From: Aquidulcibacter paucihalophilus | Lineage (GTDB): Bacteria; Pseudomonadota; Alphaproteobacteria; Caulobacterales; Caulobacteraceae | Direction of reading: 5' to 3' | Assembly: GCA_030285985.1 (NCBI GenBank) | Contig: CP127384.1 | Span: 2,468,501 to 2,532,500, forward strand | DNA length: 64,000 bases | Shown here: positions 13,359 to 31,024 of the stretch, one piece after another | How the letters are laid out: every line of letters starts with the position of its first letter | Position numbering within the stretch: position 1 is the first letter of the stretch | Notes under the pieces: generated by a model | Database searches by the model: none | Seen by the model: the letters and a program-made list of their open reading frames with translations, nothing else | What the model was told of the DNA's origin: nothing | Position numbers and translations under genes: made by a program

Positions 13359-14765
13359 TCAGAACTGGAAATAGATGAAGGGGGCGACGCCGTCCGGACG
13401 CACCGCCTCGATGAGCAGGAAGGCCGCTCCGATCAGCAGGCCAAGGGTGATCGACGGCGCCGCCTTGAGCCGCTCGGCCACGCCCTCGATCGCGCGCGGC
13501 GGCAGCCAGTGCATGGCCAGACCCCCGACGATCAGGGTCAGCAGCAGCGGCGTGAGCGCCGTCACCGGACCGATCCGGCCCAACCCCTGCAGCATGGCCA
13601 TGGCCAGGTCGAAAGTCTCGGCCCGGAACAGGATCCAGCCGAGGCAGACGATGTGGAAGGTGACCAGCACACCGATCACCGTCGGGATCACCTTGCGGTC
13701 GCCGAAGACCGCCCGACCCAGCCGTTCAATCACCTGCACCCCGCCGTGGAGCGCCCCCCAGGCCAGGAAGGTCCAGGCCGCCCCGTGCCACAGCCCGCCC
13801 AGCACCATGGTGATGAAGACATTGATGCAGGACGCGGCCAGCCCCTTACGACCGCCCCCCAGCGGCACATAGAGGTAGTCGCGCAGCCAGCTGGACAGGC
13901 TGATATGCCAGCGTCGCCAGAAGCTCTGCATCGACGAGGCCCGGTAGGGCTGGTCGAAGTTGCGCGGGAAGGAATAGCCCAGCAGGGCGGCGATCCCGAT
14001 CGCCATGTCCGAATAGGCCGAGAAGTCGCAATAGATCTGGACCGCATAGCCATAGACCGCCGCGGCGATGTCGAAGGCCCCGTAGGCGGATGGATCGAAG
14101 AACACCGGATCGACCAGGTTCACCGACAGTTCCGAGGCGATCACCGTCTTCTTGAACAGGCCCCAGACGATCAGCAGCAGGCCGTGGGTGGCCATGGCTC
14201 GCGTCAGGCGGGGGGCGCGGTCGAACTGCGGCAGCAGGTCCGAGGCCCTTACGATCGGCCCGGCCACCAGATGTGGGAAGAAGCTCATCAGCAGCATGAC
14301 GTCGAGCAGGCTCTTCGCCGGCGGCGTCTTCCCGCGATGGACGTCGACGACGTAGCTAATGCCCTGGAAGGTGAAGAAGGAAATCCCCACCGGCAGCACG
14401 ATCTGCAGCAGCGGCAGATCCCGCTCCCAGCCGAACCGCATCAGCAGGTCGCCGGCCTGTTCGATGAAGAAGCCATAGTATTTGAAGAAGCCGAGGATCA
14501 GCAGGTTGGCTGCAACCCCGAGGCCGACCATCCAGGCTGTCTTGCCGTCCTGTTCCCGCGCCCGGGCGATCAGCGCCCCGACGCCCCAGTTCAGCACCGC
14601 CGAGAAGATCAGCAGGGCGACGAACCGCCAGTCCCACTGGGCGTAGAAGAACCAGCTGGCCAGCAGCAGGAACAGTTTGCGCCGCCCGTTCTCGCGATCC
14701 AGCGACCAGGCGGTGAAATAGACGAACAGGAAGAAGACGCCGAAGGCGAGCGTAGGGAACAGCAT
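13359..14765 (-). CDS. MBOAT-family membrane O-acyltransferase (AlgI-like)
   Basis: The 468-residue polytopic protein starts MLFPTLAFGVFFLFVYFTAW and carries the family core SMQSFWRRWHISLSSWLRDY followed by YVPLGG and MVLGGLWHGAAWTFLAWGAL, including the conserved His thought to be catalytic. AlgI/DltB-type enzymes move acyl groups across the inner membrane for O-acetylation of exopolysaccharide or other envelope glycans. It directly abuts (0 bp) the upstream SGNH gene and is followed by a small membrane protein, the classical layout of a polysaccharide O-acetylation module. The acceptor is not identifiable here, as no synthase genes are nearby. Confidence 0.92.
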   Translation of the reverse strand: MLFPTLAFGVFFLFVYFTAWSLDRENGRRKLFLLLASWFFYAQWDWRFVALLIFSAVLNWGVGALIARAREQDGKTAWMVGLGVAANLLILGFFKYYGFFIEQAGDLLMRFGWERDLPLLQIVLPVGISFFTFQGISYVVDVHRGKTPPAKSLLDVMLLMSFFPHLVAGPIVRASDLLPQFDRAPRLTRAMATHGLLLIVWGLFKKTVIASELSVNLVDPVFFDPSAYGAFDIAAAVYGYAVQIYCDFSAYSDMAIGIAALLGYSFPRNFDQPYRASSMQSFWRRWHISLSSWLRDYLYVPLGGGRKGLAASCINVFITMVLGGLWHGAAWTFLAWGALHGGVQVIERLGRAVFGDRKVIPTVIGVLVTFHIVCLGWILFRAETFDLAMAMLQGLGRIGPVTALTPLLLTLIVGGLAMHWLPPRAIEGVAERLKAAPSITLGLLIGAAFLLIEAVRPDGVAPFIYFQF

Positions 14766-28289: not shown

Positions 28290-29720
28290 TCAAAGCAGTG
28301 CCCGGATGCGCTTCAGGTCCGCAACGAAGCGGCCACGTTCCTCAATCCGGGCGGCTTCATCCGTCAGGCGGAGGAGGTAGGCGGGATGCACGGTCGCCAC
28401 GACCCGGGCTCCACCGGCCTGATGCATCGGCTGTCCGCGTTCCTGCATGAGGGCGATTTTCCGGTTCAGGACCCCGAGGGCCGCCGTGGTTCCCAGCGTC
28501 ACGATCACCTTCGGCTTCACCAGCCGGCGCTCCGCGTCCAGCCACCAGCGGCAGGCGCTGATCTCGCTGGCGAGCGGGGTCTTGTGGATGCGCCGCTTGC
28601 CGCGCGGCTCATGCTTGAAATGCTTCACCGCATTGGTGACGAAGGCGTCCTCCCGCCGGATGCCCGCCTCCACCAGCGCCTCATCCAGCAACTGTCCCGC
28701 CGGCCCGACGAAGGGACGACCGGACAGATCTTCCTGGTCGCCCGGCTGTTCGCCGACGATCATCAAGGGCGCGGCTTTCAAGCCGGTGCCGCAGACGCCC
28801 TGGGTCGCATCCCGCCACAGGGGGCATCGGCGGCAGGCCTGGACCGCCTGTCCGAGTTCTTCCAGCGACGACGGGACGAACCCTTCGTCGAAGGCGTGGT
28901 CGCGATTGATCCGGGACAGGGTCTTCGCAAGCCGGGCGTTGGGTTCCGACGCCGGTGCCGCGACCATTGTCTCGGTGCGGGCCAATGATTGCGCCGTCAG
29001 CTGATGGATCAGCGCCGCCTCGGGCAGGTTCTTCCAGTAGCGTTTGGGCATCTCGCCCTGCATGGTCTTCAGCTTCAGGCGCGCCGGATTGAAGGTCGAG
29101 GCGTAGTAGGTCTTCCAGAAGTCCTCGACCTCATCCTCGCCCGGAGCCATGTCGCGGGTCGCCGGCGGACCGAACGCCAGCGTATCCCCGTCCCAGATCG
29201 CTGACCCGTCCGGCGTGAGGATGGTCCAGTGCATGTTGGCAAACCGGCGGGCGAAGAAGGGTGCCGTGCGTTCCAGCACCCGATGTGCGGGCTCGAACCA
29301 CGCCGCCCACCGCTCCCCGTCCGCCGCATCAATCCGCCGGAAGCGGACGAAGGCCTTCATCTTGTGGCTGGCGCGGCTGACGTTTTTGGCGCGTTCCATG
29401 GCATCGGCCACATCGACGTCGGTCACGACCCGGATCAGGTCGGGTTCGGCCTTCAACCGCCAGAGCAAGCGGTACAGCAGATCAAACCGGTCCCCGGAGC
29501 GATGCAGGATCACCGACTGCGCCAGATCGACGAAGGCGCGCGCCGTGTGAAAGCCGGTGTCCGGCGTCAGTGCAGGCAGACCGTCGTCGAACAGACCCGG
29601 CCCGCTTCCCCCGACCCGGAAAACCGCCTCCCCCGGCGCAACGCCCGCCTGACGGAACGCCCGCGCGCCGGCCCGCCAGCCATCGAAATCGGTTTCCCCG
29701 GCCAGGGTCGCGACGCGCAT
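28290..29720 (-). CDS. udgX: UdgX-family uracil-DNA glycosylase with N-terminal DUF4130-type domain
   Basis: The 476-residue protein is a fusion. Residues ~1-250 are the DUF4130 / TIGR03915 domain (AKNVSRASHKMKAFVRFRRI, ANMHWTILTPDGSAIWDGDT). Residues ~270-476 are a family-4-like uracil-DNA glycosylase with two Cys of a likely iron-sulfur cluster (VQACRRCPLW), motif A VGEQPGDQEDLSGRPFVGPA and the UdgX-specific loop GKRRIHK, whose His forms a covalent bond to the abasic sugar in characterised UdgX. It directly abuts the radical SAM gene upstream, sharing its LexA-type control. It is expected to bind uracil in DNA very tightly. Confidence 0.93.
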   Translation of the reverse strand: MRVATLAGETDFDGWRAGARAFRQAGVAPGEAVFRVGGSGPGLFDDGLPALTPDTGFHTARAFVDLAQSVILHRSGDRFDLLYRLLWRLKAEPDLIRVVTDVDVADAMERAKNVSRASHKMKAFVRFRRIDAADGERWAAWFEPAHRVLERTAPFFARRFANMHWTILTPDGSAIWDGDTLAFGPPATRDMAPGEDEVEDFWKTYYASTFNPARLKLKTMQGEMPKRYWKNLPEAALIHQLTAQSLARTETMVAAPASEPNARLAKTLSRINRDHAFDEGFVPSSLEELGQAVQACRRCPLWRDATQGVCGTGLKAAPLMIVGEQPGDQEDLSGRPFVGPAGQLLDEALVEAGIRREDAFVTNAVKHFKHEPRGKRRIHKTPLASEISACRWWLDAERRLVKPKVIVTLGTTAALGVLNRKIALMQERGQPMHQAGGARVVATVHPAYLLRLTDEAARIEERGRFVADLKRIRALL

Positions 29721-30962
29721 TCAGAACAGGCTCAGCTGGACCGGCTGGACGGTCGGCGTCATCCGGGCGCGCAGATCGGCTGCGTCCGTCAAGCCTCCCG
29801 GAGTCCAGTCCAGCGCCGTGATGAACGGCCGAACCTTGTCGATGCCCCGGCAAAGACGCCCGATGTCCTCAAGCCTCAGCGTGCGCCAGCGACGGACCTG
29901 AAGGATGCGGTTCACAGACTTCACGCCGAGGCCCGGCACCCGCAGCAGCATCTCGCGCGCGCCGGTGTTCACATCGACCGGAAACTGCGCCCGGCTGTTC
30001 AGCGCCCAGGCCAGTTTGGGGTCGATGGCGAGGTCCAGCATGCCGTCATTGGCGGCGTCGCCGATCTCTCCGGGCGAAAAGCCATAGAAACGCATCAACC
30101 AGTCCGCCTGGTAAAGCCGGTGCTCGCGCATCAGCGGCGGCTTCGACAGCGGCAGGATGCTGGACGAATCGGGGATCGGGCTGAAGGCCGAATAATAGAC
30201 CCGCCGCAGGCCGTAGCCGGCGTAGAGCGAGGCGCTGCGGTCAACGATTTCGGTATCGGACGCGCCGTCGGCACCGATGATCAACTGGGTGCTCTGGCCG
30301 GCCGGGGCGAATTTCGGCGGCTTGGCCCGGTCCTTCCTGGCCGGACGCGCGGCCTCGACCTTCAGACGCACCCGGCCCATCGCCTGTTTGATGACGCCCA
30401 CGTCCTTCTGTGGGGCCAGCCGCTTCAACGCCTCGTCGCGCGGCAGTTCGATATTGGCGGACAGCCGGTCGGCGTAGAGGCCGGCTTCCTCGACCAGAAG
30501 CGGATCGGCCTCGGGGATCAGCTTGAGGTGGATGTAGCCGCGGAAGTCGTGCTCTTCCCTGAGCTTCTTCGCGACCAGCACCAGCTGCTCCATGGTGTAG
30601 TCGCCCGAGCGGATGATGCCGGAGGAGAGGAACAGGCCTTCGATGTAGTTCCGCTTGTAGAAATTCAGCGTCAGCTCGACCACCTCATCGACGCTGAAGC
30701 GGGCGCGCTGGACGTTCGAGGACGCCCGGTTGATGCAGTAGACGCAGTCGTAGATGCAGAAATTCGTCAGCAGGATCTTGAGCAGGGACACACAGCGGCC
30801 GTCCGGTGTGTAGGCGTGGCAGATGCCCATACCTTCCGTGGAGCCGATCCCCTTGCCGCCGGACGAGTCGCGCTTCGACGTCCCGGACGATGCACAGGAG
30901 GCATCATATTTGGCCGCATCCGCGAGGACGGCGAGCTTGCTGCGGAGATCGAGAACGGCCAT
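29721..30962 (-). CDS. putative DNA modification/repair radical SAM protein
   Basis: The 413-residue protein has the radical SAM cluster motif FCIYDCVYC (C-x3-C-x2-C) and NRASSNVQRARFSVDEVVEL, matching the TIGR03916 family. A helix-hairpin-helix (LLRVPGLGVKSVNRILQVRR, about residues 335-355) points to DNA binding. The protein ends VQLSLF; QLSLF is the canonical sliding-clamp (DnaN) binding pentapeptide, here at the extreme C-terminus. The start codon at 30962 lies 2 bp from a LexA box. It is the first gene of a two-gene operon with udgX. Reaction unknown. Confidence 0.92.
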   Translation of the reverse strand: MAVLDLRSKLAVLADAAKYDASCASSGTSKRDSSGGKGIGSTEGMGICHAYTPDGRCVSLLKILLTNFCIYDCVYCINRASSNVQRARFSVDEVVELTLNFYKRNYIEGLFLSSGIIRSGDYTMEQLVLVAKKLREEHDFRGYIHLKLIPEADPLLVEEAGLYADRLSANIELPRDEALKRLAPQKDVGVIKQAMGRVRLKVEAARPARKDRAKPPKFAPAGQSTQLIIGADGASDTEIVDRSASLYAGYGLRRVYYSAFSPIPDSSSILPLSKPPLMREHRLYQADWLMRFYGFSPGEIGDAANDGMLDLAIDPKLAWALNSRAQFPVDVNTGAREMLLRVPGLGVKSVNRILQVRRWRTLRLEDIGRLCRGIDKVRPFITALDWTPGGLTDAADLRARMTPTVQPVQLSLF

Positions 30963-30964
30963 TC

Positions 30965-30979
30965 GTTCACTTTATGTTC
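30965..30979. promoter_or_regulatory. LexA (SOS) box GTTC-N7-GTTC
   Basis: GTTC-ACTTTAT-GTTC matches the alphaproteobacterial LexA operator GTTC-N7-GTTC exactly. It lies between the flgL stop (31025) and the radical SAM start codon (30962), ending two bases from that ATG, where bound LexA would block transcription or initiation. The radical SAM-udgX operon is therefore predicted to be induced by DNA damage. Confidence 0.82.
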
Positions 30980-31024
30980 TCAGCGACATGCCTGTCGAGC
31001 GTAGCCGGTGCATAAAGTGCACTG

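Follow-up and report, generated by a model that had tools for sequence, protein, structure and literature searches.

A predicted SOS-inducible radical SAM/DUF4130 operon with a conserved clamp-like tail in Aquidulcibacter paucihalophilus

When, and where on the DNA, would a bacterium deploy a radical S-adenosylmethionine (SAM) enzyme that is encoded next to a uracil-DNA glycosylase of the UdgX family? The question is raised by a two-gene operon on the reverse strand of the alphaproteobacterium Aquidulcibacter paucihalophilus (Caulobacteraceae), whose 3.1 Mb genome forms a single contig (CP127384.1, assembly GCA_030285985.1), and of which we analysed a stretch of 64,000 nucleotides (positions 2,468,501 to 2,532,500), here called the window. 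The first gene encodes a radical SAM protein and the second a fusion of a DUF4130 domain with UdgX. SOS control of these genes would tell when the system acts, and a conserved motif for binding the replication clamp would tell where. Our best explanation, to which we assign a probability of roughly 0.6, is a DNA repair operon predicted to be SOS-inducible, with a radical SAM enzyme that would be tethered to the clamp and act on damaged bases.

Half of this answer has precedents. SOS control is predicted for COG1573-COG4277 in Bacteroidetes (PMC8565304) and for CAC3343-CAC3344 in Clostridium (PMC3828012), and a uracil-DNA glycosylase repair system is cited as SOS-regulated in Verrucomicrobia and in Alphaproteobacteria (Caulobacter) (PMC8565304), while the precise physiological role of UdgX is called largely unknown (PMC10359453). 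An earlier, sequence-only reading of the locus had combined SOS control and clamp recruitment into an uncharacterised pathway. The box and the tail on which it relied are conserved and its clamp link stands at the level of sequence, but SOS control had already been published (PMC8565304, PMC3828012); what is new, and can be put to the test, is the clamp tail.

Loci were drawn from the family, class and phylum of the organism and from a collection of named genomes. The main sample comprises 204 alphaproteobacterial loci (201 distinct proteins, a few genomes being sampled twice), and the comparison sample 31 loci from other Pseudomonadota and five from four other phyla; 240 loci were scored, and the tail statistics use 237 distinct radical SAM proteins. 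At least 584 relatives of the radical SAM protein were matched, of which the best 80 were kept and all 80 examined; among 103 matches over the family cut-off, 57 were newly examined, 15 were already in the sample and 31 were left out. The structure alignments include 61 radical SAM rows out of 81 listed and 56 partner rows out of 75; a smaller radical SAM alignment has 20 sequences. The counts exclude a masked stretch (L118/L287), which leaves 77 of 78 Caulobacteraceae loci, duplicates of the window and of G024 (L134, L135), loci under the family cut-off (L140-L147 and L286) and a contig from a viral collection (L255).

The LexA operator and its promoter

The sequence-only reading had described a perfect alphaproteobacterial LexA box two bases from the start codon, and this is what the DNA contains: GTTCACTTTATGTTC lies two bases from the radical SAM start (ATG complement at 30960-30962), inside the 62-base gap that separates the gene from its upstream neighbour (Table 1). 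By number alone the motif is unremarkable: it occurs twice in the window, where 1.33 occurrences are expected and 43 of 100 shuffles give two, and genome-wide there are 84 against 18 for the pattern read backwards. A chance box was nevertheless rejected on position and conservation. The exact box stands upstream of the radical SAM start in 197/204 alphaproteobacterial loci (194/201 distinct proteins), compared with a background of 29 boxes in the 1,124,767 bp making up the rest of these loci, or 0.0019 per 75 bp, and five of the seven loci that lack it differ by one mismatch. Conservation, for which the sequence-only reading had looked to the Caulobacterales, thus extends far beyond that order. 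The orientation is GAAC-N7-GAAC in 192 of the 197 loci (one of which also has the other orientation), and the spacer varies.

Outside the Alphaproteobacteria this box type is upstream in none of the 31 loci from other Pseudomonadota, 23 of which carry CTGT-N8-ACAG instead; two loci (L266, L267) are one base short of the latter, and a plasmid copy from Pusillibacter (Clostridia; L289) has two GAAC-N4-GTTC sites upstream. These patterns resemble gamma-proteobacterial and Gram-positive SOS boxes listed in PMC9578287. LexA control therefore seems to have been kept while the LexA motif turned over with lineage. From these comparisons, SOS control of the operon is well supported.

Three further sites are recorded for their own sake. 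Three related genomes (L272-L274) have TCTCATCCAATGAGA in common at the place usual for the LexA box, possibly the site of another regulator; the Acetoanaerobium copy has one stray palindrome match at -257; and the window has a second GTTC-N7-GTTC match, at 14118-14132.

Alignment of 188 distinct promoters on the box gives A-TATAAT as the commonest spacer letters between the GAAC half-sites, with TATAAT at spacer positions 2-7, and a weak enrichment of TTGxC 17 bases upstream of this -10 element. In alphaproteobacteria the operator thus appears to contain the promoter -10 element, and LexA would therefore block RNA polymerase directly. The commonest box start is -17 (83/197 loci), which predicts a transcript start at or near the ATG and hence a leaderless message.

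Neighbours were inspected for 18 boxes picked from the 84 in the genome. They include lexA, uvrA, ssb, ruvC (whose start the box overlaps), radC and an mmcB-like gene, MmcB being a known Caulobacter SOS gene (PMC9578287), as well as glyoxalase-like and Dfp-type genes. Boxes near other repair genes point both ways. One box precedes by about 0.7 kb the match to a second Y-family protein, probably ImuB; what we take to be a second DnaE comes further along. Two side observations concern other boxes. One (L061, G000:C1:1806246-1806260) is separated by 133 bases from the start of the gene for the replicative-type DnaE and adjoins an aconitase X-type gene on the opposite strand. Another (L064, G000:C1:2572003-2572017) precedes an MraZ-like gene by about 120 bases (the profile matches of this gene are under cut-offs), and an SOS link to the division cluster is possible.

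The C-terminal tail of the radical SAM protein

As the sequence-only reading had noted, the radical SAM open reading frame (ORF) terminates in ...QPVQLSLF*. QLxLF is the consensus for binding the beta sliding clamp and QLSLF its full form (PMC4549789), the motif also being given as QL[S/D]LF (PMC3716654), and changing Q and F to alanine abolished beta binding of a transposase (PMC4549789). In a first census, 96/96 alphaproteobacterial proteins had Q[LMP]x[LF][LFA] close to the C-terminus. The strict pattern Q[LM]xL[FLIW] occurs within the last 34 residues of 216/237 distinct proteins, as opposed to 131/11,850 shuffles (1.1%), 2/1,857 internal stretches and 0/231 partner tails. Within the last 16 residues it occurs in 215/237 proteins, as opposed to 154/11,850 shuffled tails, 0/227 partner-protein tails and 2/2,816 internal 16-mers; this narrower census scored L290 and L293 as lacking the motif, which stands 15-21 residues before their ends, and the later one took in the last 34. 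The strict pattern fits 195/204 alphaproteobacterial loci (last 34 residues), and absence of the tail from close homologues, an outcome that would have refuted the sequence-only reading, was not what we found. A looser penta- or hexapeptide pattern fits all loci (204/204 alphaproteobacterial, 31/31 from other Pseudomonadota and 5/5 from four other phyla; 237/237 distinct proteins), and a like motif was seen by eye in 7/7 gut (fecal) contigs, partial ones and whole ones. The shuffle and partner controls weaken the loose count, not the strict one. On comparison, both the box and the tail exceed chance.

Q409 and L412 are invariant in 20 aligned sequences, where they follow a variable linker, and at least 90% conserved in 61. 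The motif stands at the very end of the protein in 182/240 loci and 1-21 residues before it in 58/240. That the tail is kept merely as the ribosome site of the next gene was considered and rejected, because synonymous codons vary among 82 QLSLF tails and nine loci have kept the tail although their partner gene is at a distance of 519-1,269 bp. In the structure model, residues 410-413 have a predicted local distance difference test score (pLDDT) under 50, and the protein combines the features by which a clamp binder is recognised, a QLxLF-type motif in a flexible and conserved position. In the replicative-type DnaE of the same genome, QVSLF is followed by about 235 residues, a position that matches the clamp motif of E. 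coli DnaE. Docking of the radical SAM tail on the beta clamp is, judged by these patterns, probable. In the open-licence texts available to us in part, no clamp tail is reported for the TIGR03916, TIGR03915 or UdgX families.

The two proteins and their distribution

The radical SAM protein is a member of TIGR03916, which we take to be COG4277, its score standing far over the cut-off of 343.5 bits. Among Pfam and NCBIfam matches at expectation values (E) up to 0.001 there are the general Radical_SAM Pfam family and TIGR03916 and no SplB-named family, so that the protein does not belong to the SplB photoproduct lyase profile. The cysteines of the CxxxCxxC motif are invariant in the alignments of 20 and 61 sequences and occur, together with C23, C48 and C57, in 204/204 alphaproteobacterial loci, 29/29 loci from other Pseudomonadota and 5/6 further loci; the distant relative L293 lacks both the extra cysteines and DUF4130. 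Because three further conserved cysteines precede CxxxCxxC, an auxiliary cluster is suggested. The barrel of the structure model (pLDDT 83.9) most resembles the folds of HydE, biotin synthase and viperin-like enzymes, with low template modelling (TM) scores, and no strong sequence match was found among solved structures (best E 0.012); the literature available to us assigns no reaction to the family. The basis for the helix-hairpin-helix of the sequence-only reading is a conserved LLRVPGLG stretch (20-sequence alignment), together with weak profile matches to domains of the ComEA type (E 0.02 and 0.05). The closest named relatives among the matches listed come from Brevundimonas and are 79-90% identical. 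A gene with the name of the TIGR03916 family is up-regulated in desiccated Acinetobacter (PMC13130816).

The TGA of the radical SAM gene directly abuts the ATG of the second gene, so that UdgX with its KRRIH loop follows without a gap, as had been claimed. The second protein scores 202.4 bits to TIGR03915 (cut-off 112.25) and 297.5 bits to TIGR03914, the UdgX family (cut-off 189.95). In its structure model (pLDDT 91.0) the UdgX part matches M. smegmatis UdgX structures; uracil-DNA glycosylases and similar proteins made up the best 50 Foldseek matches, which gave no lead on the DUF4130 fold. The residues expected of a UdgX are present, E324, Q325, P326, G327, R377 and H379 being invariant and K375 at least 90% conserved in 56 sequences, and in M. 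smegmatis UdgX it is the KRRIH histidine that forms the crosslink with the abasic site (PMC10359453). DUF4130 is described as an enzyme with a predicted role in mutagenesis and with ties to uracil-DNA glycosylases and to radical SAM proteins resembling SplB (PMC3765255).

The sequence-only reading had paired the radical SAM protein with UdgX, but the near-constant partner proves to be DUF4130/TIGR03915, present in 201/204 alphaproteobacterial and 29/29 other Pseudomonadota loci. The DUF4130-UdgX fusion occurs in 167/204 and 13/29 of these, respectively. DUF4130 without a UdgX seen beside it was found in 32/204 alphaproteobacterial loci (29 with less than 1,700 bases of sequence downstream), and without UdgX in the stretch in 16/29 loci from other Pseudomonadota (one with less than 1,700 bases downstream) and 5/6 further loci. 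UdgX as the core of the system was rejected: since the radical SAM/DUF4130 pair persists without it, this pair is, on gene content, the core and UdgX optional, and the substrate is unlikely to be a UdgX crosslink alone.

Two variants of the operon were observed. In seven loci (L126, L160, L174, L176, L194, L204 and L218) the radical SAM and UdgX genes are separated by a hemerythrin-like gene, and five of these loci belong to records with the names Sphingomonas, Stakelama or Sphingomonadales; the two hemerythrin-like genes scanned match PF01814 and the others were assigned by eye, and the protein would possibly give oxygen or nitric oxide protection to the iron-sulfur enzyme. What can be recognised of the radical SAM gene in L286 (3477-3884; overlapping L140, G299) is its C-terminal part alone; a LexA box and a DUF4130 ORF are close by, and the operon copy has apparently decayed.

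The radical SAM gene is found in 158 records of a plasmid collection, 58 of them in Phaeobacter, nine typed mobilizable and seven conjugative; a few of those listed are chromosome-sized. A phage origin was rejected, relatives of the radical SAM protein amounting to one viral contig and ten phage-collection records (eight fecal contigs and two filed as Acinetobacter phage); phage UdgX matches, which cover at most 40% of the query among the best 20 of 42, count against it as well. Upstream of the operon lies a flgL-like gene (flagellar profile matches under cut-offs), and downstream on the same strand a gene for an MlaE-type permease.

Table 1. Coordinates of predicted features of the operon in the window
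Feature	Position	Strand	Basis
LexA operator (SOS box), coding strand GAAC-N7-GAAC	30965..30979	(-)	motif and conservation in orthologous loci
Putative -10 element TAAAGT within operator spacer	30969..30974	(-)	aligned promoters
Putative -35 element TCGACA, 18 bp from -10	30993..30998	(-)	tentative; one base farther than the 17-bp TTGxC enrichment
Radical SAM ORF, TIGR03916 (rSAM_link_UDG), 413 aa	29721..30962	(-)	profile, 549.5 bits
Radical SAM cluster motif CxxxCxxC (C69, C73, C76)	30735..30758	(-)	invariant in alignments
Helix-hairpin-helix-like region LLRVPGLGVKSVNRIL	29889..29984	(-)	conservation and weak ComEA-type match
C-terminal QLSLF, predicted beta-clamp-binding pentapeptide	29724..29738	(-)	tail comparison across homologues
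Second gene, TIGR03915/DUF4130 fused to UdgX, 476 aa	28290..29720	(-)	profiles, structure model
DUF4130/TIGR03915 domain, residues 9-235	29016..29696	(-)	profile
UdgX domain, residues 237-472, with GEQPG motif and KRRIH loop	28305..29012	(-)	profile, alignment, structure match
KRRIH R-loop, residues 375-379 of second protein	28584..28598	(-)	alignment; includes the crosslinking histidine

Proposed mechanism, alternatives and known systems

In the mechanism that we propose, LexA would sit on an operator spanning the promoter -10 element until damage leads RecA to trigger LexA cleavage, whereupon both proteins would be made. The flexible QLSLF tail would tether the radical SAM protein to the beta sliding clamp and the helix-hairpin-helix region would hold the DNA, and the enzyme would carry out radical chemistry on a damaged base where replication has stalled or left a gap, regularly partnered by the DUF4130 protein. 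UdgX, in operons such as this one in which it is fused to DUF4130, would remove uracil and covalently cap the abasic site, protecting it from breakage. The operon, its operator, their conservation and the protein families are seen in the sequences; LexA binding, clamp binding, the substrate, the chemistry and the division of labour are what we infer. A broader version, on which we are evenly divided, holds that the TIGR03916 proteins would be the first clamp-tethered radical SAM enzymes and part of an ancient SOS-induced radical SAM/DUF4130 module that repairs or bypasses a base lesion at the replication fork, to which UdgX was fused later to cap abasic sites; the family would have had the clamp tail from its beginning and retained it in all five phyla sampled, the LexA operator changing by lineage.

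A number of observations weigh against a clamp-tethered, SOS-induced repair operon. Several of the 18 inspected boxes adjoin genes without a repair link or without a family match, and an AT-rich spacer preferred by LexA itself may in part explain the -10 consensus. No recognised LexA box is seen at two alphaproteobacterial loci (L122, L230), at L228, L272-L274 and L283, or at L288 and L290-L293 (Acinetobacter, Phocaeicola, Acetoanaerobium, Fusobacterium and Gemmatirosa), where the scan covered a few patterns. The strict tail pattern fits only 21/31 loci from other Pseudomonadota and 3/5 from further phyla, and the loose one is weak alone, fitting 22% of shuffles and 30/231 partner tails; the pattern was not found in DinB, the second Y-family protein or the end of MutS in this genome, which are thus not usable as positive controls. 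The cysteine region C23-C57 has low confidence in the structure model, and the operon is patchy, occurring in 78/149 Caulobacteraceae genomes.

The alternatives differ in what they make of the tail, the partner and the chemistry. The tail could be a degron, a protease recognition signal for the turnover of an SOS protein, rather than a clamp motif: it is C-terminal, hydrophobic, of low confidence in the model and mostly at the very end, and some tails end in FAA, resembling ssrA-like degron tails. We regard this as very unlikely in view of the Gln at position 1 and the Leu at position 4, which the 20-sequence alignment shows to be invariant, of some homologues in which as many as 21 residues follow the motif, and of the alternation between penta- and hexapeptide forms, as in clamp motifs, which come in a hexapeptide form too. 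The radical SAM protein could alternatively act on the UdgX-DNA crosslink or on UdgX itself, and the operon would then be a UdgX system that includes an enzyme for release or activation. The frequency of the DUF4130-UdgX fusion in alphaproteobacterial loci speaks for this, but it becomes quite improbable when radical SAM and DUF4130 genes remain in the loci without UdgX, among them those 16 from other Pseudomonadota (one a short stretch) and the five further loci.

As to the chemistry, the protein could be a direct reversal enzyme akin to photoproduct lyase, only incidentally under SOS control, with a tail that merely raises its local concentration on DNA; the radical SAM barrel of the model would suit such an enzyme, and several species have, as an SOS gene of its own, one for a radical SAM protein of the SplB type (PMC8565304). 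The profile matches, among which no SplB-named family appears, and the closest folds, HydE, biotin synthase and viperin-like proteins, at low TM-scores, make this doubtful. Nor do we know of a DUF4130 partner of SplB, which also counts against it. The notion that the pair makes a regulated base modification, which the title of the NCBIfam family permits alongside repair, strikes us as scarcely probable, LexA-type operators in several lineages being a better fit to repair or tolerance.

Clamp-tethered repair remains our preferred explanation and, if true, radical chemistry would join the activities recruited by the replication clamp. Compared with known systems, the operon shows no family-level difference from the set of TIGR03916, TIGR03915/DUF4130 and UdgX (TIGR03914), all domains scoring over their cut-offs and the genes being adjacent; a clamp-like tail is unmentioned for that set in the open-licence literature available to us. 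The Bacteroidetes COG1573-COG4277 operon likewise joins a uracil-DNA glycosylase and COG4277 under LexA-type control and is interpreted as uracil-based excision repair, with no clamp link named in the part of the source at hand (PMC8565304). Beta-clamp binders such as DnaE, transposases and UmuC have the same QLxLF-type peptide, often C-terminal (PMC4549789, PMC3716654), with no radical SAM enzyme among those named in these portions of the literature. In the same genome, a PA0069-family radical SAM gene (L062; 506.5 bits to NF033668) also adjoins a GTTC-N7-GTTC box but belongs to a different family. M. smegmatis UdgX, finally, is 47-51% identical to the UdgX half described here (best 30 structural alignments), with GEQPG and KRRIH kept; it has been studied, and its structure solved, as a protein of about 210 residues, whereas here UdgX is fused to DUF4130 and encoded beside a radical SAM gene.

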